This document shows, in pieces, positions 1-18,189 of a stretch of DNA of 26,605 bases. Made by a program: the position numbers and the translations under genes. Origin of the DNA: a virus; IMG/VR virus record IMGVR_UViG_3300034375_006353, positions 1 to 26,605 of that record; one strand, written 5' to 3'. The notes below the pieces were generated by a model. That model searched no databases. It was not told the DNA's origin and saw only the letters and a list, made by a program, of their open reading frames with translations. Positions within the stretch are counted from its first letter, which is position 1; every line of letters begins with the position of its first letter.

Positions 1-169
1 CTTGGATAAACAGCTTATCAAAAGCTGTCTGGTCAACGACTCTAGCTCGCCTAAACACACCCCTAGAGTCTATATTCTCTAATTCAATTTTCTTTTTCTT
101 TCGATACTCTTCTGTTCCTGACTCTATCAGGACAGGGTATTCAGATATCGAAGAGGTCCGCTTCTTCAT
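1..169 (-). CDS. 5' end of an unidentified phage gene (runs off the window edge)
   Basis: An open frame begins with ATG at 169 and stays open for 56 codons to the left edge. Its first residues read MKKRTSSISEYPVLIESGTE, followed by a lysine run (YRKKKKIELEN) and an Arg-rich segment (GVFRRARVV). A strong Shine-Dalgarno sequence (GAGGAGG) lies about 8 bases upstream, inside the end of the primase-helicase gene, with which it overlaps by 29 bases. That overlap and RBS argue for translational coupling in one minus-strand early operon. I do not recognise the family. Downstream of a phage primase-helicase a replication gene such as a polymerase or nuclease would be usual, but nothing in these 56 residues shows it. 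Confidence 0.72.
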   Translation of the reverse strand, partial: MKKRTSSISEYPVLIESGTEEYRKKKKIELENIDSRGVFRRARVVDQTAFDKLFIQ

Positions 170-1901
170 TCTGGATTACCTCCTCTTCCCCAGTGTCGAA
201 AGAGCTAGTGATGCTACCGATCGACGCAGCAATTTCATCAACGCTGACTCCCTCGGAATACCTGCCGCAAGTTGGATCGTATCTCAGGTGAGCGGAGCCC
301 GTCTCTCCAAGCCACTTGAAACGAACCTTCCAAACGACAACAAAGGTATCTCCGTTCTCGTCTCTCGATACAGTCACACCAAAGTCTGCCTTCGCAAACC
401 ACGCAGCAGATCCAGAGATGTCCATGCCTCCGGGGGTAGGCAACTTTCCGCCCTCCCCTCGATACATCTTCTGCGGGTGCGCCACGATCCAGATATGTAT
501 GTGATGTTTTTTAGCAAACGCATGAAGACGAGTGAGCATCGTATTGATAGCATCCGTCTCTAGAGCAACGTCAGTATAATTAAACGGATCAATCACCAAC
601 CCGTTTACTCCCTCGTTCTCGACAAGTACAGCAGTCCTTTGAAGAATCGACTCGATCGTGTGAGAAGAGGAGGGATCAAGAAAGAAGAAGTGTCGATCGA
701 GCCAAGATGCCGAGTCTTCAAGATCTTCTTCACTCATCACCTTCCCTTCGAAGAGAGGCTTACCCGCATACTTCTCGATCAGTTTCCCTGCATGTATTTC
801 GATAGGGTTCTCTGCTGAAAAGATTGCGAACTTCCAATCCTCTTTCATTGCAAGACTCACCATTGCAAAGTCTATAAACTCAGACTTGCCAGAGCCCGGA
901 ACACCAGTAACTACCGACACCTGATCGGAGCAGATAGTCATGAGTCTATCAATCGAAGGTATACCAATCTTCGCACCACCCTTGAATCCACCAATGCGTA
1001 TGTCGCTAATCGTAGTGGCTACTGAACTGGCTCGAACGATGCCCTCGTAAAGAATGTTCTCGACTTCTTGGAAGGCGTTCTTGATCCCAACCTCGCCATG
1101 AGTTGCCAAGCACTCGTTGGCATCCTTGACCCCATACTTAGACCAGTCTATTACGCCGACTCTCCTGCGCCCAAGAAAATCCAATAGCCTTCCCTGAAAC
1201 TCTCTGCCCTTTTCGTCTGCATCAACAGCGACAACTACATCAATCTTGTTGTTCTGAACAGCATCGACCACAGGCTTCAGGAAAGCAGGGACATCACTAG
1301 CCTTGCCGATGTTCGCCCCCGACGGAACCGAAAACGCCTCGTAGCCACACGATCGAAGCGCAAGAGCGTCGAACTCTCCCTCTGTCAAAACAACCATGTC
1401 ACCAAAAGCAATGTTCGGAAACAAGCTACGGCACACTCCCGTCTGGGTGTAAGCCTTGTTCTCGACAGCTCTCCACTTGATTGCTCCATCAGCGTAAGAG
1501 AATCCAATCGAACTGTCCTTCCCTCCAAGAGATGTGTAATAGACATCATCAGATAAAAGAATCGAACCCTTGATTTCGTCAGAAATCTTTTCAGGATTGA
1601 TAGATCTTGAGGAGAGAATCTTGTCAAAATCTTTTAGACTGTCCTCATCACTGGCCCTCGTGAACGAAGGTGCTGTCCGGATAATCCTCTCAGGTTGATT
1701 CTGACTCATACTCACTTGCCCCTTCTCCTCACAGTTATGGCAGTACCAGACTGCGGCTGTGTCTTCGAATGTGACACGAAGACATTTTTTATTTCTGTTT
1801 GATCCAGATCTTTCAGACGAACACTCGGGACATACAAAACTTTTAGTTCCAATATCTTGCGCCCCTAGTTGCGACTCTACAAAACTTTTAATCGAATACA
1901 T
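141..1901 (-). CDS. Bifunctional DNA primase-helicase (T7 gp4 / Twinkle-like)
   Basis: A replicative protein that should lay RNA primers and unwind the fork. Counting from the longest start, an N-terminal zinc finger has two CxxC pairs near residues 28-31 and 58-61 (CPEC, CHNC). A Toprim domain follows with the Glu motif TEGEFDAL near 177-184 and the acidic DADEKG near 231-236. The C-terminal half is a RecA/DnaB-type helicase with Walker A GVPGSGKS near 337-344, Walker B GLVIDPF near 438-444 and a switch histidine in WIVAHPQK near 475-482. About 590 residues is normal for gp4/Twinkle proteins. The longest frame starts with GTG at 1913, where an AGAGGG lies too close to be used. ATG at 1901 has GGTGG/GGA at a usual spacing and is preferred. 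It is followed by the coupled gene at 169. Confidence 0.95.
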   Translation of the reverse strand: MYSIKSFVESQLGAQDIGTKSFVCPECSSERSGSNRNKKCLRVTFEDTAAVWYCHNCEEKGQVSMSQNQPERIIRTAPSFTRASDEDSLKDFDKILSSRSINPEKISDEIKGSILLSDDVYYTSLGGKDSSIGFSYADGAIKWRAVENKAYTQTGVCRSLFPNIAFGDMVVLTEGEFDALALRSCGYEAFSVPSGANIGKASDVPAFLKPVVDAVQNNKIDVVVAVDADEKGREFQGRLLDFLGRRRVGVIDWSKYGVKDANECLATHGEVGIKNAFQEVENILYEGIVRASSVATTISDIRIGGFKGGAKIGIPSIDRLMTICSDQVSVVTGVPGSGKSEFIDFAMVSLAMKEDWKFAIFSAENPIEIHAGKLIEKYAGKPLFEGKVMSEEDLEDSASWLDRHFFFLDPSSSHTIESILQRTAVLVENEGVNGLVIDPFNYTDVALETDAINTMLTRLHAFAKKHHIHIWIVAHPQKMYRGEGGKLPTPGGMDISGSAAWFAKADFGVTVSRDENGDTFVVVWKVRFKWLGETGSAHLRYDPTCGRYSEGVSVDEIAASIGSITSSFDTGEEEVIQNEEADLFDI

Positions 1902-1918
1902 TAGTCCATCCACCCCTC

Positions 1919-1948
1919 TTGACAGACACGCTTTCTACAGGCTATAGA
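1919..1948 (+). promoter_or_regulatory. Sigma70-like promoter, plus strand
   Basis: A perfect TTGACA (-35) at 1919-1924 is followed after 18 bases by TATAGA (-10) at 1943-1948. It points right, away from the primase-helicase gene and into a gap that has no plus-strand gene. A start near 1954 would give a short RNA ending at the terminator at 2059-2105. The -35 match is exact, the -10 is 4 of 6, and the spacing is one base above optimum. Confidence 0.5.
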
Positions 1949-2000
1949 ATCCTATAAGCCTATATGATTCTCCTCTGAGAGAATCTAGTTCTTATAGGAT
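1939..2000. repeat. Overlapping, mutually exclusive inverted repeats
   Basis: ATCCTATAAG (1949-1958) has a perfect reverse complement at 1991-2000, enclosing GATTCTC/GAGAATC (1966-1972 and 1979-1985). The left arm also pairs backwards, AGGCTATAG (1939-1947) with CTATAAGCCT (1952-1961), with one bulge. The two pairings share bases and cannot form together. They overlap the -10 region of the plus-strand promoter, so they could be an operator, a replication-origin element or an RNA switch. Confidence 0.6.
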
Positions 2001-2106
2001 CTAAGCGATCCGCACAAGACGTAGAAAATTTAATGGCCTGCTTGCAATGAGCAGGTCAGGGGGAGGAGAGAGTTAAACCCCTTTCGATCTCCTCCCCCAT
2101 TTTATT
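1955..2106 (+). ncRNA. Candidate small structured RNA, about 150 nt
   Basis: This is the only gap of about 200 bases without a gene in the window. On the plus strand it has, in order, a consensus-like promoter, a 5' stem (TATAAG at 1953-1958 with CTTATA at 1991-1996) enclosing a 7-bp hairpin (1966-1972 with 1979-1985), an AT-rich stretch near 2021-2034, a 6-bp hairpin (2037-2042 with 2050-2055) and an intrinsic terminator. Only trivial reading frames (5 and 9 codons) occur on this strand. It could be a phage regulatory RNA, an origin-priming transcript beside the primase gene, or merely a structured intergenic spacer. I recognise no known RNA family. Confidence 0.4.
2059..2105 (+). terminator. 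Strong intrinsic terminator, plus strand
   Basis: A perfect 11-bp GC-rich stem, GGGGGAGGAGA at 2059-2069 with TCTCCTCCCCC at 2088-2098, has an 18-base loop and is followed by ATTTTATTTTT. The T-rich tail is on the plus strand. Read on the minus strand the hairpin is followed by TGACCTGC, so it is poor as a terminator for the minus-strand genes either side. Confidence 0.68.
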
Positions 2107-2114
2107 TTTACTCT

Positions 2115-2507
2115 TTATCTTTTATTCTTCAGTCTGTTCAACAAGATATCTCTGCGTATTCTTTTGGGGATATCGCATAGTTCTTGTATCAGGTCTCTTA
2201 CTAATTCATAATCCATAGATGCTGATTTGCACACATCTACAAATGAATCAGAAGACGCCCACTCTTTGATCTCTGCTTCCTCTTTGGGATTGCCAGCGCA
2301 AAGATCTTTAAGAGACTGAAGAATTATTGCAGACGCTAGTCTTGATTTAGACTTGAGATTGTAATCTTCGCTCTCGGATTCTCTTTGTCGAGATGATGAA
2401 ATGCGTGTATCTCTTTGATCTGCCGGTCGTTCTCGATCACCTGAGTCTTTTGAAGCAAGTCCATTATCAAACTCGGGTCCAAGTCTGGCCTTCTTGTCTT
2501 GTACCAT
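2115..2507 (-). CDS. Small conserved-looking phage protein, start uncertain
   Basis: The last 75 or so residues look like a real folded domain: ASAIILQSLKDLCAG, an acidic stretch, then WASSDSFVDVCKSASMDYE and VRDLIQEL. Small phage proteins with a similar 'W-x-x-S-x-x-F-x-x-[VL]-C' pattern are common near recombination genes (from memory), and their function is unknown. The first 55 residues are charged and low in complexity. They lie entirely over the catalytic part of the RusA gene in another frame. No ATG, GTG or TTG lies near the RusA stop, so the choices are ATG at 2507 (172-base overlap with RusA), a -1 frameshift from RusA, or a non-standard start. The stop at 2115 is the last before the structured gap. 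Confidence 0.6.
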   Translation of the reverse strand: MVQDKKARLGPEFDNGLASKDSGDRERPADQRDTRISSSRQRESESEDYNLKSKSRLASAIILQSLKDLCAGNPKEEAEIKEWASSDSFVDVCKSASMDYELVRDLIQELCDIPKRIRRDILLNRLKNKR

Positions 2508-2716
2508 ATCTCTACGATCAACTTCACGTCGCCGGTTATAGGGCAGTCCGGAGGACGTACATAAGATTCGAACTGTTTGGAATATTTTAGCGCCTTTTCG
2601 GATTTAATCACACGGGGCTTACCCTTTATAGACACAAGCCTCCTGCTGTTCGACTTACTGGCTGGCTCGCCGGGAATAATTTGCTCCCAAAAAACCGTGT
2701 CTTTTCCTGTTGACAT
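2336..2716 (-). CDS. rusA-like: RusA-family Holliday junction resolvase
   Basis: This 126-residue protein should cut four-way DNA junctions formed during phage recombination and replication. The N terminus carries the family signature IIPGEPASKSNSRR (13-26). The acidic core RRPDLDPS (75-82) plus ENDRQI (95-100) supplies D78, D80 and D97, matching the three catalytic aspartates of E. coli RusA (D70, D72, D91). The usual D-x-D-N-x-x-K pattern is altered here: Asn is replaced by Pro and the Lys is absent, with two residues fewer before the last Asp. The frame is open up to 2836, but ATG at 2716 puts the IPGEP motif at its usual distance and leaves a 42-base divergent gap to the exonuclease gene. 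No strong RBS is visible (purine-rich GATAAGA only). Confidence 0.88.
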   Translation of the reverse strand: MSTGKDTVFWEQIIPGEPASKSNSRRLVSIKGKPRVIKSEKALKYSKQFESYVRPPDCPITGDVKLIVEIWYKTRRPDLDPSLIMDLLQKTQVIENDRQIKEIHAFHHLDKENPRAKITISSLNQD

Positions 2717-2737
2717 ATTCTTATCTTGCTTTATTCT
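2710..2737 (+). promoter_or_regulatory. Candidate promoter of the plus-strand recombination operon
   Basis: A perfect TTGACA at 2710-2715 and TATTCT (4 of 6) at 2732-2737 are 16 bases apart and point at the exonuclease gene. A start near 2744 would leave a leader of only about 15 bases. The -35 box overlaps the start codon of the divergent RusA gene (2714-2716), so the two operons would interfere directly. Confidence 0.5.
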
Positions 2738-2741
2738 TGAA

Positions 2742-2762
2742 TCATTGGAAGGGAACCAATGA
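2742..2762 (+). promoter_or_regulatory. Hairpin holding the RBS in its loop and the start codon in its stem
   Basis: TCATTGG (2742-2748) and CCAATGA (2756-2762) form a perfect 7-bp stem with the 7-base loop AAGGGAA. The Shine-Dalgarno sequence of the exonuclease gene spans the 5' stem end and loop, and its ATG (2759-2761) is paired in the 3' arm. It may act as an RNA hairpin that limits translation, or as a dyad operator for a DNA-binding protein such as the 59-residue protein at the end of the operon. Confidence 0.55.
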
Positions 2763-3649
2763 CCATTATTAATAACCACGATGCCCCTGCATCGTTCATA
2801 TCGTTTTGCGAAAACGATAGGTACACAAAGGGGCATTCAGACTACTCGGCTACACAGCTAATTGACGAGCCGCGCGTCGTGGAGTTTAACAGAAGGTATC
2901 CGGAGCTAGTGATAGACGACCCATACGAGAATCCGTGGAAGTTTATCTCGACGATATTCCACGCGCTTATGGAACAGCATTCACCAGAAGACGAGATCGC
3001 AGAGGAGCGTATGTTCGCGGAGATTGGAGGGGTGACTATCTCCGGCGCGATGGATGTTCAGGCTGGGCCAGACCATTCAGTTACCATCGGTGACTATAAG
3101 ATGACCACTGTCTATGGCATCAAGGACACTAAGAAGTTTGAACAGCAGTTAAACATTTACGCTTGGCTCATTGAGAGCCAGACAAGTAAAGTAGTTACTA
3201 GCTTGAAAGTGTATGCCTTCTTGAGAGACTGGAGAATATCTTCTTCGGAAACAGTAAGGGGCTACCCACCGACGCCGGGGATCACAATACAACTTCCACT
3301 CTGGGACTATGACGAGAGAGAAAGTTTCATCGCCGACAAGGTTTCTACCCTGCTTTCTTGCAAAGACCTACCGGATGACGACCTGCCTGAATGTACGCAT
3401 GAGGGGCGATGGCCTTCTGGTACATCGTATCGAGTAGTGGACATGAGGGATGATAGTTATGTTGAGTTTGATAGAAAGGGTGATGCTCAGAAGCATTGGG
3501 ATCAGCTTGATTCCGATTCTCAATTTAACTCTGCTCTCGGCAAGACGTTTAGTGAGTACCGTAGATGCAAGAGCTACTGTCCTTTCAATAAGATATGCAA
3601 CACTTATAAGGGGTTTCTAAATGAGCGCAGCAACAAAAGAAGCAGATGA
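2759..3649 (+). CDS. PD-(D/E)XK exonuclease, RecB/Cas4-like
   Basis: This is probably the 5'-3' exonuclease of the phage annealing system, making single-stranded DNA for the Rad52-like protein encoded next. The N-terminal motif SATQLIDEPRVVEF (30-43) is typical of phage nucleases of this superfamily. The active site is readable: H68, an acidic stretch at 78-88, SGAMD with D99, IGDYK with D112 and K114, then Q130-x3-Y134 in EQQLNIYAWL. The C terminus has RRCKSYCPFNKIC (C270, C274, C280), resembling the cysteine cluster that binds an iron-sulfur centre in Cas4 and AddB, with C17 a possible fourth ligand. The spacing is CX3CX5C rather than CX2CX5C. ATG 2759 follows GGAAGGGAACCA, a good RBS. The first 75 bases also hold nested inverted repeats. 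Confidence 0.88.
   Translation: MTIINNHDAPASFISFCENDRYTKGHSDYSATQLIDEPRVVEFNRRYPELVIDDPYENPWKFISTIFHALMEQHSPEDEIAEERMFAEIGGVTISGAMDVQAGPDHSVTIGDYKMTTVYGIKDTKKFEQQLNIYAWLIESQTSKVVTSLKVYAFLRDWRISSSETVRGYPPTPGITIQLPLWDYDERESFIADKVSTLLSCKDLPDDDLPECTHEGRWPSGTSYRVVDMRDDSYVEFDRKGDAQKHWDQLDSDSQFNSALGKTFSEYRRCKSYCPFNKICNTYKGFLNERSNKRSR
2781..2836. repeat. Nested inverted repeats at the start of the exonuclease gene
   Basis: An outer pair, ATGCCCCT (2781-2788) and AGGGGCAT (2829-2836), encloses a perfect 9-bp dyad TATCGTTTT-GCG-AAAACGATA (2799-2819). A third, CGATGC-CCCT-GCATCG (2779-2794), competes with the outer arm. All lie within codons 7-26 of the exonuclease gene and upstream of the divergent RusA gene. 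Their position between two divergent operons suggests an operator or an RNA structure. The 21-bp dyad has the size of a typical repressor site. Confidence 0.55.
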
Positions 3650-5856: not shown

Positions 5857-5950
5857 GTGAGGGGGGACGGGCTCGTAACTCAGCTGGTTAGAGTGCTGTT
5901 CTTATAAAGCAGTGGTCGCGGGTTCGAGTCCCGCCGAGCCTACCCCTCAC
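5857..5950 (+). other. 8-bp stem flanking the tRNA
   Basis: GTGAGGGG (5857-5864) just before the tRNA is the perfect reverse complement of CCCCTCAC (5943-5950) just after it, and a short CTTTTGC follows. The precursor could therefore close on a second stem stacked near the acceptor arm, with four unpaired bases on the 5' side and none on the 3' side. It may guide end processing or serve as a weak terminator for the operon. Confidence 0.5.
5869..5942 (+). tRNA. tRNA-Ile (anticodon UAU)
   Basis: A full 74-nt cloverleaf. The acceptor stem is GGGCTCG (5869-5875) with CGAGCCT (5935-5941), the first pair being G-U, and the discriminator is A5942. The D stem is ACTC/GAGT with GG in the loop. The anticodon stem is CTGTT/AGCAG around loop CTTATAA, which gives U33 and anticodon UAU. 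The T stem is GCGGG/CCCGC with loop TTCGAGT. CCA is not encoded (ACCC follows). UAU reads AUA directly. Most bacteria instead read AUA with a CAU tRNA carrying lysidine. ATA codons are visible in the adjacent early genes, for example in the DUF3310 gene. The tRNA closes the plus-strand operon and its last three bases overlap the stop of the converging gene. Confidence 0.93.
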
Positions 5951-8253: not shown

Positions 8254-11200
8254 CTAGTTATTCAATGCGGATAGAGGGAACGGAAATCTCGGAGATAGGT
8301 CAGATTTTTCCATGACCTTCTTCGAAGAGGACAGTAGTGCATTCCTGAGGGCATCAATTCTTTTAATGGCTTCTGCTTTCTGGTCTGGGTCTGTCCTAGT
8401 GTCTAGCAATATAAACCTCTCAGCCCTTCTCAATCTTTCTAGCTCTGTGTCTATGGCGTTGATCGCAGGCTTCATGGATATAACACCTGAGTTTTCTTCA
8501 AATATCTCTCTGGCTTTTTCAATATCGCCATCGTTCCTTGCTGAGTTAAAAGCGTTCAGTATTCCTGTCGTTGAATTTCTGAATGCGTACCACTCCGACA
8601 TTGCACCTGCTGATCCCTCTGCGCTTTGCAAGAAGCGCCTAGCGATCATCATCTGATCCGCTCTTAAGGTCGGCCTTGCGGGTAGCCCTTTAACATTTCT
8701 CATCGCCCAGTCAGCAACTGTCAATAAGTAGCCGCCTAGCGTTCCTGTGTATCCCCTAAGGACATGCTCTACCTTAAGCGGTGATGCGTCAAACGCTTCT
8801 CCGATTGTTACAGCAAGCTCGTTTGTAGATAATCTCTTTTGATATTCAGGGTCAGCTCCAGTTAAATACCAAGGCACGATGCTGCTGCCGGTGTAGAATG
8901 AATGATTCATCATTGCTTCTAAGACAGGCTTTGCAAACTGAGGACCGAAGACGTTGATCTCAAGAGTCGAAGCGACTCCTCTCTTGATTGCATCTACAGA
9001 TTGCTTGTATGTCTGGTCGCCACTGTAATAGTGATACACTCTTTCCGGCACAGTTTTAAATAGAAACCCAACTTCGAAAGGTACAGGTATCTTAAAGCCG
9101 GGCATATCACCAAAGCCGGGGATAATCCAGTTATCATCTCTTACTTCAGGCTTTGCATTTTTGTATTCGTCTTCATCTTCCACCATCCCGGCGTACATAA
9201 GGGATGCTGTAGCCAGCAAGGAAGCTCTACTCAAAAATCCTATGAGTGCTTTGTTTCGAGTCTCGTTCGTTACGGTAGAATACTTACCTGTCCCCGCTCG
9301 ATACAAAACATCTAAGCCTTGAACTCTTGCATTAAGGAATGGAACAACGGCAGTGATTATCTTCGCTAGTCCAGAGTTTCCTCTTCTAGAAAAGTTAATA
9401 ACTTCAGCCGCTTGGTAGATAGCTTCAGATTCCGCTTGTCCTCTCGTGAATCCTTTTTCTAATAGATCTTGAAGAACGCTTTCATAGACCGCTTGCCTTG
9501 TTGCTGCGTCAGACTTAGTGGATACATCACCACTCCAATCCCACAGCTTTGTAGCCGAAGACCAGAATGGAATCTTCTTCCCCGGCATCTGCCCTTCTTC
9601 TTTCAACTTCTTGGTAAACTTCTTGACAAGATCCTTAGTTGTCCTTGCGTTGTCAAATCCGCTGATAATCCCTGCGCTCTTTAGGGTCTGATAAGAATCG
9701 TTTTCTCCGCTAAAGAAACTTCTCATCGTGTCTATGACAGGCTTTGTACCACCGGCAGTAGTCCAAGTGGACAAGGAGTCTCTGAGTAAGTTTGCCATGA
9801 TGAAGTCAGGGCTTCGAGTGACCATTTCCCTAAGGAACTGAGCGGGAGCGGAAAAGAAGTTCAAATACTTTATGTGCCCCTCGGCCATCCCAGCGAGAGA
9901 GTCATGCAGAAGCGGATCAAAAACATTAAAGTATCTATCTTCTCCATCCATTCTCACAGAGTGAGTGTCTGCTCTTACTTGACTAGGCTCTACTTCTGTT
10001 GCCATTCCAATGAGAACAGCGTCGTCCATCACTCTAGTTGCTGCGACGTTCTTCATTCCGCTGGTGACAGCCGCTTCTAGGTTTCGCATAATTCCAGTAA
10101 GCGGATCGACAACCATCGAATCTCCGCCCCTTGCCTTGCGAGGCGGCTTCGCTCCAGTCAAGGAGCCAAACATAGAGGAAGGCATTCTGGATTTCTGGGC
10201 AGCATCCATAGGCGGCATCCGTCCATCTCTTTCCATCTGGGCAAGCTCTTCCCCTATGAGATCTTGCATTCCAGCTATGAGTCTTTCATCCGCCTCGCCT
10301 TCGAACTCTCTATAGAAGGGTATGTAGTCTCCGTACTTCTTGAAGACCTCCCCCATGCTGTCGTTGATAATCCCTGTGTCTTTCATGTAGTCAACGATTG
10401 CATCATTCCATTCTCTGTAGTCTGCATCTACAGATTCAAACAGCTCTGTCCAGCCGTTAGCCTGAGCTGTATCCATGACGGTCTGTCTCTCTTCAGCAGA
10501 CATCGAGACCATCCTGCCTTCTCTTTCAAATCTCCCCTCCCTGATTGCGATTTTCCATACATGCCAATCTCTAAGGAGGTCAACTTCCCCTTTGAATAGA
10601 GGCTGTAATATTTCGATAAGCCCCTTTTCGTTTGTATCCACTCGGGTTATTCCATCCCTGTAGACCAACCTTCCTGATGTAATGGCCTCTTGAACTATGC
10701 CTTTAGACTTGTCCGACAAGTACGCAGCCTTGAGCGCGTCCATGCCAGCGAGCATGTAACTTTCATCTCCTCTAATTTCTCTAGCTTTCTCGACAGCTCT
10801 TCGTATTCCTTCATACTTGTCTATGAACTTCTGCCTAAACCAAGCAAGAGGTCTGTCCGATAGTACGTCTTTTACAGATTCCCAAAGACTCTTATGGACA
10901 GGCGGAGGGCTTATCGTGGCGTGGAGAACGTCATAAGATCTATCGCCCTTTGTCCGAGCTGTATCTACGGTAAGCTCCACTAGCTTCTCATTTGATAATG
11001 AAAGTTTACGAGGCTTCATTTCTCCTAGCGCAATCGGTATAGACATATCATCCATGATCGACTGGTCAGCTGAAACCGTTGACTTTTCTTTTGAAATTCT
11101 AGGTATAAAGCCCGGAGTTTTATTGATTAAGTTATCTCCGAATTTAGAAATTTCTTGATCTGAAGTCTGGCTATCGAACTGTGCGACATAAAGATAAGTG

Positions 11201-14200
11201 TCGCTGTACCCTGAAGAGTATGGCCCCGGCAAAGCTCCAACGATTCTAAAGTTCGGAACAGTATCTTCAGATATACCAGTCTCTTCTTCTAGTTCCCTGA
11301 GCGCAGTCTCAAGGGGGGATTCTCCGGGGTCGAGTCTGCCCTTGGCTATGCTCCAGTGATACCCGTCAAAGAAATTTGCGACCTCTCTTAATACAATATT
11401 ATCCTTATCATCTTTGACCATGACACCGTAAGACGGGATAGATATATTCTCTATCGGACCCCACTCCTTAGGTGTAATCTCGGTTATGTCAAAGTCAGGA
11501 GAAGTCTTAAAGTCCTTCATCGCTCTAATTATTTTGCGATCTCTCTCCCGACCCCTTTCGTTCGTAGACTCGGAGACCTTTTCTATCGCCTTATCGGGAG
11601 AGAAGGATTCGACAGAGCTAGTCTCTTGGCTTGCAGTACCCTTGTCTTTCCACTGAAGATCGTTCAGGGAGAACTTTCTTCCGGGCTGGCCCGTGCTGGT
11701 GAACTGGGCTGCGGCGCTGCTGTCGCCGACAATATCTGCCCTGCGAGAAGCTAGATCCCTTCTCCTTGCTTCAAGGATGTTGAACGCTTCTTCGTTTTCT
11801 TCTGGGTCAACAGGGCCAAATTCGCTAACAGCTTTGCGAAGATCATCAACAGGAATAGAAAGAACCTTGTCGATTCCTTCTACTAAATCTTCGTCTGTAA
11901 CCTTGTCAAAGACCAGAGAGGCTTCCGGAGCGATGTTCATATCTCTCATGGAATCTATATCGTTAGCTTCCGGACCCCAAAGGCCTGCTCGCATGTCATT
12001 CTTCAGCCCGCCCTGAGCGCGGTAAGGCATCGTGCCGCCGGGGTCAATCCTAACCCCGCGACCTTCTTTAATAAGCAGGTTGTCAAACACAAGGCCAACG
12101 ACATCCCAGTTCCCCAACCAAGCATCAACAGCAAAGTTCTCTTGCACGCCCGGCACTCTCTCGCTTACAAGAAGATCTCTATCCATTCCTAAACCGGGAA
12201 CAAATGAAGAGGCTACAGAAAACTCGCCGTTCCTCACTGCGGGGTTAGCGTCAGCAACTTCGACACCTGCAAGCTGGTACAGCTTACTGGCGAGGATTTC
12301 ATTTCTCCCGATATCAGGATCTCTCGGTGTCTTAACGTAATACTGCTCCCCGGTGTCTTCGTTTCTATACATTCCACCCGCGTTTGATCCAGTTTGACTC
12401 CCAACCTGTTGGAATCCGTCCTCGTCTACGTTGACAATCGACCATCTCGGATTCCTAGTCCAACCTATAACGGGGGCTCTCTCCCTCGCGGCGTCTCTGG
12501 ATGCTAGATAATTTGCCCCAAAACTCCTCATCTCACTATCTAACTGATCGAGTACGGCGAACGCACCCTTGACGCCATCATTGGCACGTTTAGATGCGGG
12601 GATAGAATCATCTTTCCTATAGTTCTTAAAATTTGAATCTAAAACTGCGCTACCTAAAACGTACTGCAACGTATCATCCGGAAAAGCATAATGTTCAATA
12701 AAACTTTCTAAATCTGGAAGCATTTCCAGATCACTAAACGGAGGAGTTGTGACCATCATCGTGTGTAGAGCGTTGAATAGCTTGCGATTATACGCAGATC
12801 TTTCTCCACCACCTGTAATTGCATTAAAGAAAAGACTACGGAAAAGAGATTTATCGTCTTCTCTTGAATAGGGATATTGGTCGCGCCGCCATTCCTCATA
12901 ATTTCCAGTATCGTATCTTAATAGCCCATATTCATTTAGTTCAAGTATGTCTGAATTTGTGAAATCTTCAGATAGTAAAGCTCCTTTCAATAAAAGTGCT
13001 CTGAATATTTTACTCTCTAAAGTTTTAGATGTGGCAGTTATTGGCTTACCTTCGGGAAGAGATTGAACAATGTATTTGTTCGAACCCTGCCAGCTTCCCA
13101 CGGAATTTATATTATTCATTGGGGTAAAAGATTTATTTATTGATGGAAATACTGAATCATAAATATCTTGAGATGAAATTACTCCATCCTCTACTGCCAT
13201 TCGTTGTTCGGCCATCTCAATTAGTTGTTGACCTATAACATTAATAAATAAGTCGTTATACTCTAAAGCATTCTTGAAGGGATAAAATTCTTTTACTTCA
13301 AAAGTTCCGCTAGTAAATAATCCAGCTTCAAAATCGAAACCTCTTGCTGAATCAGACTGATGAGCAGGAGTCTGGGCGCGCACGCTTCCAGATATTTTTC
13401 CAGCAGGAAATACAAAAATAAGACCATCACTAAAGTCTTCTTCGGCTGTGCTTATCTTGGAGGTTAATTCCCCAACTCCGTCTATAGAGATTGTTCTACC
13501 TACCGCTCTATCACTAGCCCAATCAAGTGCTTCTTCGTAGGTAGTTGAAGATCCGAGTGCGCCAGCTTCGTCTCTTGAAGAAATGTCAAATAAAAATCTA
13601 GAAAAACTTGTGCCTCTGAAGACAGGCATGTTTGTAACTGGCGACGTTCTTTCAAAAATATATTTAAAGATAGCTGCATGGGCTCTTTCTACGGGCGTTT
13701 GCAGAACAGACCCGGTGAAGCGTTGAACGCTGTCGTAGTCATTGTCCCATGTGTTATCTTTATCCTTAGCTATCTCGCCTATGCTTTGTTTTAAATCCTC
13801 AACATCTGTTGTTTTGTTATCAAAATATTTTTCTGCAAATTCTAAAACACTCTTATAGCCTTCTAAGAATCTCGGCGTTTCACCTGACAAACTCTTTACC
13901 GTAGAAGAAACAGCTGACTCTGAGTTATCTAAACTTCTCAAAATAAGCCTAGCTTGTGTAGCAGAACGAGTGTGTTTAAGGCTGTCTAATATTGGATTTA
14001 CATATCTTTTATGGAGCGACGCGATAGTTACGGCGCTTGGAGTTTTTCCTGAATCAATTAAACTCTTAAGTTTTCCATAGTCGCTAAGAACCACAACAGC
14101 TCTTGCTTCCATTGGAAGAAGTTCTTCAGTTTGCATAACTTTTTGTATAGCTGGATATATAAATGATATGTAACCATCTTCAAGTTCTTCTTGAACCGCT

Positions 14201-17200
14201 GATACAATTAAATGCCCTTCACTGAACGAACGGTAATCTCTTTGAGACAATGAGTTTACCATTAAATCAAGATTTAAATCATACTCTCTATTTAAGTCTC
14301 CAGAAAATCCGAAGTCACTTTTTAAGATGTCACTATCCGATCTTCCGTCAGCTTCATTGGTAAATTGGTTAATGTCTCTTACATCGTCTTCTATCTCATT
14401 GTTAAATGGGATAGTGGAAATGTCATATAAGAATCCATGATGACGCGAAGGATCATGCAGTTCTCTCATTGGGGTGTTTTTTACACTTTGTAATTCAACT
14501 TCTAAACCTTCTATCTGGCGACTTAGCTGTTCGCCACTCAGGGGATATTCGTCTTCATCGAGAATTCTTCGACTTGTTAGCCTATAACCATTTACTATTT
14601 GGTTTACGGCGTTGTTAATTGCTTTTACAAACGTCTTGTAATTGTCAACGGAGCCGTAATTTTTTATGCCCGCTGCCTGCATGAGACGTTCGGGATCACT
14701 ATTGCTACTCAATAAATCCAAGTCTGAATTCGTCATGCTGTCTAAATTCAAAGAGAACTTTGTTGTCATGTCAGCAGGAACGAAACCACCGGGCACTTCG
14801 AGTAAGTAAGAGCTGTCACCCGCAACAGACCGTTTAGACATCTCCTCTTTAAGCTCTTGCCTGTATGCAGAATCTGATTCTTCTTCCCTTCTTTCAAACT
14901 CTCCAAGCATTTTCTGGCTGGTGATCGAGTGACGCTTTAAAGTCTTGTTGACTTTTCTTTCTTCAGGCTGCTCGGAATCTGCCTGCCTTCTTGCAATCTC
15001 GCCTCTGATTATTCTTGCTTGTTGAGCAGAGGATTCCTCAGTGTCCTTAAGAGTCCTGATCTGATTTCTTTCTCTAGATTGAACAGTTCCGATATTGCTG
15101 ATAACTTGCGAGGCGTCAGCAAATCCGATACCGCTGAACGCATTGGCAAGTTTCTCCATAAATCTCTGGATACGCTCAAGCAGCGTCCGGGGACGACCAG
15201 CAATTTGTCTTCTGACATTCTTATCTGAATAGAACTGCCGGTACATTTCGGCGACAGCTTCTTCCTGAATAGACTCTTCAGTTTCGTAACCCTTTACGCC
15301 TTTATAGGTTTCCTCGGCCCATTCGCTAAATGACTTACCGTCGCTCCGCTTGACCCTGTAAGTCGCATTAACTAATGCTCTCCACTCGTTCATCGTGAAC
15401 AAGTCTAAATCTCTCATGGCGTGGATAGCTTCGTGATTTACAACATCTCTCACCGCCTGACGGATCTCTGCATCCGTTGTCGCATTCCTGACAGTCGGGT
15501 GGTTTAAGTTGATTGCAATAGTCCGAAGCCCGCCGAGGTTGGGGTCAAAGAATCCTTCTGCATTTACGGACTCATTGATTACCTTTGCGGCTACGTCACT
15601 CTTGACACCAGCATCAACTAAGGCTTGCTCAAGCTCTTTAAGAATCGTTTGATTCCTTTGAGTTTGATCGCCTTCGATTCTTCTCTCAGGGGCAAAGCTC
15701 GGAAGCTCCTCCGCTGTCGCGAACTCTTCCCTTAACGCTGGATCTAGTCTGGCTCCGCGAGCCCTGAGGAAACCGGCGAGTCTTTCGCGGGCGCGAGATT
15801 TTTCTTCAGCACTTCGAACATCCCAGTCAGCTAAACCGGGAGTGAGTTCTGAAATTCTTTCGTCTCTGAGAATGTTTGCGGAGTTTTCATCGGGAGCAAA
15901 TCCGTATTCAAGAACAGAAGTTGTTCTCCCCTCCTCGTTCACTCTTTCAATCGTTGCGAATCCACTCGATTTATTCTTGTCTACTGTGAAATCAACAGGC
16001 TGATTCGATAAAACTTCCACCCTTGCGCCCGGATCAGAAGTTTCAATTTCTTCTGCTAAACTTTTAGCGTTGTTTTTGTTCTTGTAAGTTTTTATTTCTT
16101 GTCCGTTTTTCTTTACGGTGTAGCTTCTGCTCCGATGCTTCAAACGCTTGGCGGAGTTGATGGCTTCTTTTCTATTAATCGCACCGTCTACAATCTCGCC
16201 GTTCGCGTTACGAACGAAGTAACCTTCGGAGGGCTCAGTAGTGACTTCGTAGTCGCCAACCTTTAAAGCCCTTCCGTTATCAGCTTCTTGAATGTCCTGA
16301 TAAGTGACAGGCGTAAACATGCCCTTAACTTTATCAGTCTTAGGGAGGTCTCCCCTGACCCGCATGTCAGAGATAAACTCCTTGTACGTTTCTGAACCGT
16401 ACTTACCAGTCACACTTTCAAAATCACCCTGAGTTATTCGTCCATTCTCTTGGCCGATTTTAAGAAGTTCTTCGTACTGGTTCTCTGTGTAGGGAGTTCT
16501 TCTGGGCTTTAGAGGTTTCCTTCCATCTTTCTGACTAACTCTTTGAGCGTATCCTCTAGTCTCTAACGCTTGAACAATACTTGAAGCAACAGCTCTGTCA
16601 GTCTTGGAGTTCCCCATTCCCAGAACTTGGCGAACGGTGTCTCCATTAATCGACTTAGCCTTTCGAGTTCCCTTCACGGCAGCATCGAACTGCGCTCGGG
16701 TGAACATAGGCATGTCCGCTCCGCCATCTTCTTCGACATACTCTTGAACCTTCAGGCCAGACAGTACCGATCTAATCCTTCTTCTTTCTTTGTTGTCAGT
16801 ATCTTTTAAGTTTGCTGTCCTGCCGTTCGTTTGCCGTAATACAAAAGCCCTAAACCCGTCTGTATTCGTAAGAATGTTTCTGGAGTCAGCAGCCTCTATG
16901 ACATCTGCTATCTCTACAGGAGTGTTCTCTTGAGCCTGAAGTCCAGCCATTCTGACTGTATCGTTGTTTCTGCCAGCTTCTTCGTTAGCTAACCTCCAAC
17001 GATTTTCATTCTCCGATTGAATCCTTTCTGCTCTTTCTATTTCAGCTTGATAAGCAGCTTCCCTCTGAGAGTCCTGACTTTTCCTGAGCCTCCTTTCGGC
17101 ATCAGACATTTTATTCCAGTTCTCTTCAGCTTTCTTATTTGCTCTGTGAGCCCTGTATGTACCGGCAGTGCCAAAAACTCCCACTACAGGGATGGTTCCG

Positions 17201-18189
17201 GCTACAGTTGCTTTCATCTCATCAACAAATCCAACATCATCTAAGCTGATAGACTCGCCAGCTTGCGCTCTTTCGAGTACCGTTTGCATCAACTCTGTAG
17301 GAAATTCCGTTAATGACTCTAAGGCTCCCTTGCCGATAGTCTTTGATAATGTCTCTTTCCCGGCTCGCGTGGTGGTGGCGGCAAGGGATTGCTTAAGGCT
17401 CCGGGTCGCCGCAAGCTGAGCGCCACGACCAATACCTCCGGTCAAGGCAATGAATATGTAGTCCATTGCTGCCTGCGGACCGGCGGCAGCGGCAGCGGCA
17501 AAGTTGTTTATGTCTTCCGGTGTTACATCTTTTTGCCCACCTTTAGAAGCAACTTCATACTGTCGCTCAAGGTTGTCTGCAAAGAATTGAGTGGCGAGAG
17601 TTCCGATAGCGAAAGCTGCACCAAACCCAGCCTTCGCTAAAGGATGAGGCGAAGCGGTTGCTCCAGCCCTGAGAACAGGCAGAAGCCTAGCAAGGCCAGC
17701 GCCAACTTTTTGTCCTAGTTTAGTTTTAGCTACAAGATCCGAAGCCCCGACCTTGCCAGCAGCCATCGCGGGAAGCATGTACGGAGTAGATATGCCAACT
17801 TGTTCTTTTGCAAATGTCCAAGCGGTGCTTGCTGCGTCTGCTAAACCTTTCTTATCGTAATCATCAATGATATCAGTGTATTGGACAGGCTCAGGCAGAA
17901 TCTCCGCAGCTGCTCTGTTTGTTTCTTCGTATATCCGTCCGGCTTCGTCTAAAGATTCTTGAGAGCCGAAGCCACCGAGAACTGTTGACGGTGCCGCAGA
18001 TAAGGCTCCGGCCATTCGCGTGATCGTAGATCTAGCAGCAGGGAAGAAACCGGAAGGCTTTTCGAAAAGATCAGGTCTCTCCTGCATCAGCTGTTGATAA
18101 GCCTGCTCTCTCGTCACGCCAGCAGGGAAAGATATTACCTTCCCGTCGGGCAACTCTATGCCATTCGGTTCGTTCTCAAGCCAAGCCAT
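8254..18189 (-). CDS. Giant polyvalent internal virion protein (3,311 residues) with effector domains
   Basis: Likely packed in the virion and ejected with the DNA. Order: ELPDGKVISFPAG start (12-24); hydrophobic Ala/Gly-rich region (about 50-340); zincin with HEAIH at 919-923 and a further Glu near 976-981; ADP-ribosyltransferase-like fold with FRG (1524-1526), GSSTT (1546-1550) and DFEAGLFTSGTFEV (1619-1632); kinase-like fold with K1953, E1964, D2029, N2037 and D2049; Nudix box at 2284-2306 with all consensus residues; long helical half with YIPFYRE; and an LPD38-like C terminus with PFLNARVQGLD (about 2950-2960) and IPVPFEVGFLFKTVPER (about 3032-3048). K(F/L)SL(N/S) occurs at 1144, 2172 and 2395, between modules. 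Codons 1150-1876 are AT-rich. It ends 4 bases before the endolysin gene. Confidence 0.9.
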   Translation of the reverse strand: MAWLENEPNGIELPDGKVISFPAGVTREQAYQQLMQERPDLFEKPSGFFPAARSTITRMAGALSAAPSTVLGGFGSQESLDEAGRIYEETNRAAAEILPEPVQYTDIIDDYDKKGLADAASTAWTFAKEQVGISTPYMLPAMAAGKVGASDLVAKTKLGQKVGAGLARLLPVLRAGATASPHPLAKAGFGAAFAIGTLATQFFADNLERQYEVASKGGQKDVTPEDINNFAAAAAAGPQAAMDYIFIALTGGIGRGAQLAATRSLKQSLAATTTRAGKETLSKTIGKGALESLTEFPTELMQTVLERAQAGESISLDDVGFVDEMKATVAGTIPVVGVFGTAGTYRAHRANKKAEENWNKMSDAERRLRKSQDSQREAAYQAEIERAERIQSENENRWRLANEEAGRNNDTVRMAGLQAQENTPVEIADVIEAADSRNILTNTDGFRAFVLRQTNGRTANLKDTDNKERRRIRSVLSGLKVQEYVEEDGGADMPMFTRAQFDAAVKGTRKAKSINGDTVRQVLGMGNSKTDRAVASSIVQALETRGYAQRVSQKDGRKPLKPRRTPYTENQYEELLKIGQENGRITQGDFESVTGKYGSETYKEFISDMRVRGDLPKTDKVKGMFTPVTYQDIQEADNGRALKVGDYEVTTEPSEGYFVRNANGEIVDGAINRKEAINSAKRLKHRSRSYTVKKNGQEIKTYKNKNNAKSLAEEIETSDPGARVEVLSNQPVDFTVDKNKSSGFATIERVNEEGRTTSVLEYGFAPDENSANILRDERISELTPGLADWDVRSAEEKSRARERLAGFLRARGARLDPALREEFATAEELPSFAPERRIEGDQTQRNQTILKELEQALVDAGVKSDVAAKVINESVNAEGFFDPNLGGLRTIAINLNHPTVRNATTDAEIRQAVRDVVNHEAIHAMRDLDLFTMNEWRALVNATYRVKRSDGKSFSEWAEETYKGVKGYETEESIQEEAVAEMYRQFYSDKNVRRQIAGRPRTLLERIQRFMEKLANAFSGIGFADASQVISNIGTVQSRERNQIRTLKDTEESSAQQARIIRGEIARRQADSEQPEERKVNKTLKRHSITSQKMLGEFERREEESDSAYRQELKEEMSKRSVAGDSSYLLEVPGGFVPADMTTKFSLNLDSMTNSDLDLLSSNSDPERLMQAAGIKNYGSVDNYKTFVKAINNAVNQIVNGYRLTSRRILDEDEYPLSGEQLSRQIEGLEVELQSVKNTPMRELHDPSRHHGFLYDISTIPFNNEIEDDVRDINQFTNEADGRSDSDILKSDFGFSGDLNREYDLNLDLMVNSLSQRDYRSFSEGHLIVSAVQEELEDGYISFIYPAIQKVMQTEELLPMEARAVVVLSDYGKLKSLIDSGKTPSAVTIASLHKRYVNPILDSLKHTRSATQARLILRSLDNSESAVSSTVKSLSGETPRFLEGYKSVLEFAEKYFDNKTTDVEDLKQSIGEIAKDKDNTWDNDYDSVQRFTGSVLQTPVERAHAAIFKYIFERTSPVTNMPVFRGTSFSRFLFDISSRDEAGALGSSTTYEEALDWASDRAVGRTISIDGVGELTSKISTAEEDFSDGLIFVFPAGKISGSVRAQTPAHQSDSARGFDFEAGLFTSGTFEVKEFYPFKNALEYNDLFINVIGQQLIEMAEQRMAVEDGVISSQDIYDSVFPSINKSFTPMNNINSVGSWQGSNKYIVQSLPEGKPITATSKTLESKIFRALLLKGALLSEDFTNSDILELNEYGLLRYDTGNYEEWRRDQYPYSREDDKSLFRSLFFNAITGGGERSAYNRKLFNALHTMMVTTPPFSDLEMLPDLESFIEHYAFPDDTLQYVLGSAVLDSNFKNYRKDDSIPASKRANDGVKGAFAVLDQLDSEMRSFGANYLASRDAARERAPVIGWTRNPRWSIVNVDEDGFQQVGSQTGSNAGGMYRNEDTGEQYYVKTPRDPDIGRNEILASKLYQLAGVEVADANPAVRNGEFSVASSFVPGLGMDRDLLVSERVPGVQENFAVDAWLGNWDVVGLVFDNLLIKEGRGVRIDPGGTMPYRAQGGLKNDMRAGLWGPEANDIDSMRDMNIAPEASLVFDKVTDEDLVEGIDKVLSIPVDDLRKAVSEFGPVDPEENEEAFNILEARRRDLASRRADIVGDSSAAAQFTSTGQPGRKFSLNDLQWKDKGTASQETSSVESFSPDKAIEKVSESTNERGRERDRKIIRAMKDFKTSPDFDITEITPKEWGPIENISIPSYGVMVKDDKDNIVLREVANFFDGYHWSIAKGRLDPGESPLETALRELEEETGISEDTVPNFRIVGALPGPYSSGYSDTYLYVAQFDSQTSDQEISKFGDNLINKTPGFIPRISKEKSTVSADQSIMDDMSIPIALGEMKPRKLSLSNEKLVELTVDTARTKGDRSYDVLHATISPPPVHKSLWESVKDVLSDRPLAWFRQKFIDKYEGIRRAVEKAREIRGDESYMLAGMDALKAAYLSDKSKGIVQEAITSGRLVYRDGITRVDTNEKGLIEILQPLFKGEVDLLRDWHVWKIAIREGRFEREGRMVSMSAEERQTVMDTAQANGWTELFESVDADYREWNDAIVDYMKDTGIINDSMGEVFKKYGDYIPFYREFEGEADERLIAGMQDLIGEELAQMERDGRMPPMDAAQKSRMPSSMFGSLTGAKPPRKARGGDSMVVDPLTGIMRNLEAAVTSGMKNVAATRVMDDAVLIGMATEVEPSQVRADTHSVRMDGEDRYFNVFDPLLHDSLAGMAEGHIKYLNFFSAPAQFLREMVTRSPDFIMANLLRDSLSTWTTAGGTKPVIDTMRSFFSGENDSYQTLKSAGIISGFDNARTTKDLVKKFTKKLKEEGQMPGKKIPFWSSATKLWDWSGDVSTKSDAATRQAVYESVLQDLLEKGFTRGQAESEAIYQAAEVINFSRRGNSGLAKIITAVVPFLNARVQGLDVLYRAGTGKYSTVTNETRNKALIGFLSRASLLATASLMYAGMVEDEDEYKNAKPEVRDDNWIIPGFGDMPGFKIPVPFEVGFLFKTVPERVYHYYSGDQTYKQSVDAIKRGVASTLEINVFGPQFAKPVLEAMMNHSFYTGSSIVPWYLTGADPEYQKRLSTNELAVTIGEAFDASPLKVEHVLRGYTGTLGGYLLTVADWAMRNVKGLPARPTLRADQMMIARRFLQSAEGSAGAMSEWYAFRNSTTGILNAFNSARNDGDIEKAREIFEENSGVISMKPAINAIDTELERLRRAERFILLDTRTDPDQKAEAIKRIDALRNALLSSSKKVMEKSDLSPRFPFPLSALNN
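12560..14760. other. AT-rich island inside the giant gene
   Basis: Hand counts of 60-base lines give 19/60 GC at 13201-13260 and 16/60 at 13801-13860, against 42/60 at 12001-12060 and 31/60 at 14761-14820. The island covers codons of about 1150-1876, that is, an unknown helical region, the ADP-ribosyltransferase-like fold and the linker to the kinase-like fold. It begins next to the first KFSLN motif. It suggests an acquired or fast-evolving module, and its edges are approximate. Confidence 0.6.

Follow-up and report, generated by a model that had tools for sequence, protein, structure and literature searches.

A predicted plus-strand small RNA with a conserved fold and C-rich loops beside the primase-helicase gene of uncultured phages

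The gap and its transcription signals

The window, an IMG/VR virus fragment of 26,605 bases that appears to be of a marine-type phage, comes from an uncultured phage group related, at one tail protein, to podoviruses infecting Roseobacter and SAR11. A 201-bp gap (1914-2114) sits within its minus-strand RusA-ORF-primase operon, and genes encoding a PD-(D/E)XK protein, a Rad52-family protein and later products follow on the plus strand from position 2759 (Table 1). An earlier note, made from the window alone, had proposed an orphan transcription unit between the primase-helicase and RusA genes. This placement was accurate on the primase side, while on the RusA side the adjoining gene is a 130-aa ORF that overlaps RusA. 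The unit does run opposite to both flanking genes, as that note had claimed, with the signals of the gap on the plus strand and the neighbours on the minus strand. It also lacks a meaningful reading frame, since no ORF of at least 20 aa was found inside the predicted transcript; the sole listed ORF (1759-1947) terminates upstream of the predicted RNA start, and no minus-strand ORF was consistent across the gaps examined. Elsewhere in the window, a 3,311-aa ORF (8254-18189, minus strand), probably a virion polyprotein, occupies more than one third of the record, and a tRNA-Ile gene with anticodon TAT lies at 5869-5944 on the plus strand.

Table 1. Features of the gap and of the neighbouring genes, with window positions
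Feature	Position	Strand	Basis or remark
Primase-helicase (Toprim_2 + DnaB_C)	141-1913	-	Pfam; the plus-strand promoter points away from it
Sigma70-type promoter (TTGACA 1919-1924, 18-bp spacer, TATAGA 1943-1948)	1919-1948	+	Read directly
Nested inverted repeats over the -10 element, start site and first hairpin	1940-2005		Putative operator
First hairpin of the predicted RNA (GATTCTC-CTCTGA-GAGAATC)	1966-1985	+	Folds in window and L004 transcripts
Hairpin H1 of the conserved core	2034-2058	+	Inverted repeat, covariation
Hairpin H2 (stem 2059-2069/2088-2098, 11 bp, 100% paired; 18-nt loop with ACCCCUUU)	2059-2098	+	
Stretch AAACCCCUU of the H2 loop, a complement to SD AAGGGGUUU of the Rad52 gene	2075-2083	+	9-nt perfect match; pairing predicted
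T-rich tail ATTTTATTTTTA, directly 3' of H2	2099-2110	+	Read directly
130-aa ORF, immediate upstream neighbour, overlaps RusA	2115-2507	-	No predicted function assigned
RusA Holliday-junction resolvase	2336-2716	-	Pfam
Second promoter (TTGACA-N16-TATTCT)	2710-2737	+	Consensus scan; overlaps the RusA start codon
SD of the PD-(D/E)XK gene (GGAAGGG)	2747-2753	+	Candidate H2-loop target
SD of the Rad52-family gene (AAGGGGUUU / AAGGGGTTT)	3608-3616	+	Candidate H2-loop target

The TTGACA and TATAGA elements reported earlier were both present on the plus strand 18 bases apart, and their position would set the RNA start at about 1954-1956. Within the gap, this promoter ranked first (p 0.03 relative to 100 shuffles). 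A simple consensus scan listed neither the promoter nor the terminator: TATAGA is without its last T, and an 18-nt loop is longer than the scan allows. Exact-pattern scans for the promoter block matched only L004 and the contigs near-identical to the window. The second promoter, whose TTGACA recurs at the equivalent position in L004, L032, L035 and L036, probably drives the PD-(D/E)XK/Rad52 operon.

Inverted repeats at 1946-1956/1961-1971, 1949-1958/1991-2000 and 2034-2042/2050-2058 were confirmed on the plus strand of the gap, together with the several hairpins, the 11-bp GC stem and its T-rich tail, all of which had been described before. H2 with its ATTTTATTTTTA tail is a probable intrinsic terminator in the window phage. 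The stem 1949-1958/1991-2000 straddles the predicted start near 1955, so that its left arm would fall mostly outside the RNA; from its position, a role at the level of the DNA is more likely. Over the whole block 1940-2005, nearly every base was the same in the window and L004 when aligned.

The plus strand between 1950 and 2112 folded at -62.9 kcal/mol (z -6.6), a value equalled by 0/200 shuffles, and the minus strand of the gap also folded well (z -5.6). Among 2,522 windows taken across the 26.6-kb record, the gap displayed the lowest GC-corrected folding energies, its minus strand ranking first and the plus-strand window second. Since the minus strand ranks first, the whole-gap fold alone cannot pick the strand, and comparative data decide. 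Copies of the gap motifs elsewhere in the window did not exceed chance.

Conservation of the promoter and of a two-hairpin core

Relatives were gathered by their primase from viral contigs. L001-L003 were near-identical to the window, L004 shared 83% identity, and a near clade (L005-L009, L032-L036, L080, L084-L086) showed primases 54-66% identical, with the same gene order as the window where readable. A TTGACA-N18-TATA-type promoter was found at the same distance from the primase in L004, L032, L005-L009, L033, L035 and L086. The -10 element varied to TATTCT in L080 and TACATC in L085, and in L034 the TTGACA-N18-TATA promoter was lost. In all but one (L036) of 12 near-clade gaps, so in 11, the best plus-strand promoter came out at p<=0.07 against dinucleotide shuffles; because several of the 12 are close kin, they represent about six or seven independent lineages. 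On the minus strand, the best promoter never reached p 0.05 by shuffle test in 45 gaps. The L033 group carried an additional, stronger plus-strand promoter (TTGACT-N17-TGGGATAAT). The promoter half of the gap was 85% identical between the window and L004, compared with 32% at fourfold primase sites; recent transfer of the gap only could be an alternative source of this identity.

Other elements were observed in the gaps of individual lineages. The plus strand of the L034 gap bears ten-base tandem repeats (TTGACTCTGT) at ~180-230 nt from the primase start, giving four copies of a -35 element ahead of one GATAAT. A short plus-strand ORF beginning MGAYVL, MGPYVL or MRAYVL occurs in the gaps of L033, L034, L035, L080, L085 and L086; read by eye, it comes after the first promoter and an AAAGGG-like Shine-Dalgarno (SD) sequence, and possibly encodes a leader peptide. 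Palindromic repeats crowd the gaps upstream of the primase in L036, L084, L010, L015, L187, L198 and L203, with TAGGTACCTA in L036 and L084, TAGGAATATTCCTA in the L010 group and TAGAACGTTCTA in L187 and L198, and may serve as operators or iterons for a protein with changing specificity. The primase reading frame of L035 (5001-6731) contains an internal stop or frame shift.

The core formed by H1 and H2 adjoins the upstream ORF, and H2 covaries among relatives. A covariance model trained on eight sequences (L033, L034, L035, L080, L085, L086, L005 and L007) recovered held-out matches at the expected place and strand in L032 (50 bits), L004 (39 bits) and the window (19 bits), the last being weak (E 0.001-0.002). 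In the core alignment, 98.6% of cells were paired, as opposed to ~60% in a slid-structure control, and two-sided changes were found in 15 of the 19 core pairs, with 6.0 in shuffles; the alignment being fitted to the covariance model, these counts lean toward the model. Covariation exceeded both the shuffled and the slid controls in a strand-specific manner, the mark of a conserved structured RNA. The core pairs comprised 22 G.U and no A.C on the plus strand, which identifies the plus strand as the folded molecule, and the G.U bias was also seen in the single sequences of L005, L033 and L032. Fold z values for the window and seven relatives ranged from -4.7 to -6.2 on the plus strand and from -1.6 to -4.3 on the minus strand. 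The earlier note had made its proposal depend in part on conservation of the promoter or stems among relatives; both turned out to be conserved, with the plus strand folded.

The proposed intrinsic terminator held in part. It was present in the window and in several distant relatives, but 3' of the homologous stem the T-run was absent from those closest to the window (L004, L005-L009, L032, L033 group). L036, L084 and L041 harbored compact units of 82-102 nt with hairpins and a clean intrinsic terminator lying just before the end of the upstream ORF, and plus-strand terminators were seen by eye at the gap in L042, L160 and L170. The features of small RNAs ended by rho-independent termination, namely a promoter, a body, a GC stem and a T-run, were found in the window, L036, L084 and L041.

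A core pattern scan retrieved the L005-L009 type only. A stretch of L008 (8154-8231, minus strand) scored 25 bits with the core model, as if the core occurred there a second time, yet is an ordinary terminator of similar sequence, a GC-rich hairpin with TTTTTT located before a tRNA. Rfam searches gave no match for the window or five related loci at the gathering threshold, nor anything credible on the gap at E<=10, and no counterpart of the gap was returned by blastn from 50,697 phage records.

Loop motifs and Shine-Dalgarno sequences

The loops of the core were conserved in their own right, over a small number of independent lineages. Most near-clade members bore UCCUCC or CCUCC in the H1 loop or its flank, which the window does not; the H2 loop reads UAUCCCUUU in relatives and ACCCCUUU in the window. 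Relatives combined UCCUCC with UAUCCCUUUC in their core loops, and the AUCCCUUU loop was retained while stems varied, as were UCCUCC and UAUCCCUUU. The motifs CCUCC and CCCUUU are complementary to SD sequences. Besides its match to the Rad52 gene, the window loop matched the SD of the PD-(D/E)XK gene over 7 nt with one wobble. The loops of L007, L034, L085 and L036 matched that SD by 10 nt, and matches of 7-11 nt to the PD-(D/E)XK or Rad52 SDs were found in most lineages; other genes matched the loop better than PD-(D/E)XK in L032 and L033.

AAAGGG SDs mostly accounted for 12-50% of called genes in phages with the AUCCCUUU loop (6/48 in L004, 8/24 in L080, 3/17 in L032, 2/12 in L033, 3/10 in L035, 2/8 in L034, 2/5 in L085 and 2/4 in L086), for a background of at most 1%; a simple script was used to call the gene starts, which makes individual SD assignments error-prone. 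L036 and L084, whose RNA carries CCUCCU, had no AAAGGG SD in 84 genes and favoured AGGAG SDs. AAAGGG SDs were also absent from the called genes of the window (0/16) and L007 (0/24). The SDs of the window include AAGGG and AGGGG, and the PD-(D/E)XK start of L007 is probably miscalled. Overall, the loop motif tends to agree with the SD type that each phage uses.

Complementarity between the loop and the PD-(D/E)XK SD was higher for cognate than for permuted pairs (p 0.002, seven lineages), in a test conceived after the loops had been seen and with hand-picked loop segments for L036 and L084. Within the AUCCCUUU type, the cognate advantage was weak (p 0.09 for match length, 0.26 for energy), so that the loop may have a general anti-SD character and not be directed at a single gene. 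PD-(D/E)XK as sole target was supported neither by ranking nor by permutation within one loop type. Because SD assignments carry error, the loops are held to be anti-SD-like and the target mRNAs are suggested. Pairing of loops with SDs has a chance approaching even, and a specific role of PD-(D/E)XK or Rad52 as target seems rather doubtful.

A small RNA and its possible roles

On the evidence of sequence comparison, a real plus-strand RNA is very probably produced from the gap, and it can be held with high confidence that the conserved core fold is functional as RNA. The phage small RNA put forward in the earlier note is supported by the conserved promoter and stems and by the plus-strand fold. 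While the existence of a small RNA is well supported, its mechanism is proposed here. Host sigma70 RNA polymerase would start a plus-strand RNA of ~150 nt near 1955, which the intrinsic terminator would end near 2106 in the window phage; we infer early expression from the sigma70-type promoter. The two-hairpin core at the 3' end would display C-rich anti-SD loops, which would base-pair with SD regions of phage mRNAs. The most plausible targets would be the PD-(D/E)XK and Rad52 genes, encoded on the same strand 0.7-1.6 kb downstream, and pairing would lower or time translation of the target mRNAs in the manner of c4 RNA. A phage small RNA acting by such loop pairing is, tentatively, the best overall explanation, somewhat short of being probable. 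The pattern of CCCUUU loops in AAAGGG-SD phages and CCUCCU in AGGAG-SD phages could also reflect an RNA that mimics the 16S anti-SD tail, matched to the SD type of the phage, as a general governor of phage translation instead of a regulator of one mRNA, which we regard as unlikely.

Transcription as such, with its antisense overlap, could instead be what counts, setting primase level and replication timing by collision with RusA-ORF-primase transcription and by pairing of the RNA with the primase 5' leader, leading to RNase III cleavage. The geometry is that of lambda pO, where an antisense promoter abuts the start of a replication gene, faces away from it, converges with the operon and yields a short RNA, which is ended by intrinsic termination close to where the upstream gene finishes, before its stop codon. 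This position is kept in distant relatives of different sequence, a plus-strand terminator is often there (L036, L084, L041, L042, L160, L170), and the convergent pO promoter lowers pR transcription and affects lambda replication (PMC3985674). A pure cis role would constrain the loops little, yet UCCUCC and UAUCCCUUU are kept as stems change, and we consider this account possible rather than likely. The palindromic block might also be a repressor operator switching the plus-strand promoter, the RNA being incidental: GGCTATAG-AATC-CTATA(A)GCC overlaps the -10 element and the start, and its near-perfect conservation between the window and L004 goes beyond the needs of the stem. Such an operator, which appears improbable as an explanation, would leave the covarying 3' core and loops unexplained, and is compatible with an RNA role rather than exclusive of it.

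Were the gap to serve in the minus-strand RusA-ORF-primase mRNA as a leader or spacer, its hairpins would be regulatory or its AGGAGG and GAAAGGGA would act as ribosome standby sites, as the good minus-strand fold in the window and the SD-like complements of the loops might suggest. That is very improbable, since the stems would be disrupted in a minus-strand transcript (the G.U and A.C counts above), the minus-strand z was weaker in 8/8 sequences tested, a start codon does not consistently follow the SD-like loops, and the conserved promoter is on the plus strand. A replication origin with iterons, the RNA priming DNA synthesis, would fit the adjoining primase-helicase and the lineage-specific palindromic repeats of the gaps. 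GC skew in six long relative contigs tracked gene direction only and showed no origin at the gap, which left the replication-priming transcript of the earlier note without support. Moreover, conservation concerns a folded RNA with C-rich loops and not an AT-rich region for unwinding, promoter, terminator and conserved fold together describe a discrete RNA, and lambda OOP, earlier proposed as a primer, was later shown not to be one (PMC12197685); an origin at this place is highly improbable.

The small RNA proposed to pair with SDs could exert an additional effect of the pO/OOP type on the primase, because its promoter fires head-on into the RusA-ORF-primase operon; both actions may coexist, but an effect on this operon is not thought likely. 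The predicted end (2106-2110) leaves 5-9 nt before the stop of the ORF at 2115, unlike in lambda, where OOP overlaps and destabilises cII mRNA, the overlap with the 3' end of the upstream gene leading to RNase III decay. No sequence or structure relation to OOP or other known phage RNAs was obtained with blastn against the phage records or with Rfam, and we know of no counterpart in OOP of the conserved anti-SD loops. The anti-SD small RNAs of alphaproteobacteria are chromosomal and expose CCUCCUCCC loops. Exposure of CCUCC in a loop or linker is common to both, as a motif resemblance only; their architecture differs, and Rfam gave no match here.

The c4 RNA of P1 and P7 carries complementary sequences in its loops that pair near the ribosome binding site of ant mRNA and block translation (PMC12197685). 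The RNA described here is likewise phage-encoded and structured, and would carry complementary sequence in its hairpin loops, its targets and pairing being predicted; unlike c4, it has different neighbours, and neither the window nor the five related loci matched an Rfam family at the gathering threshold. The sar RNA of P22 is also a phage antisense RNA blocking translation initiation of a phage mRNA (PMC12197685), but is antisense to ant mRNA at its own locus, whereas the targets proposed here are encoded elsewhere. We regard it as a novel small RNA of a familiar type, belonging to neither the OOP nor the c4 family. With a defined promoter, fold and loops, it provides a conserved small RNA of uncultured phages that is open to testing. 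If the loops do recognise the SD type of their own phage, the phage would use an RNA encoded against its primase operon to adjust its programme of translation, or at the minimum the recombination genes.
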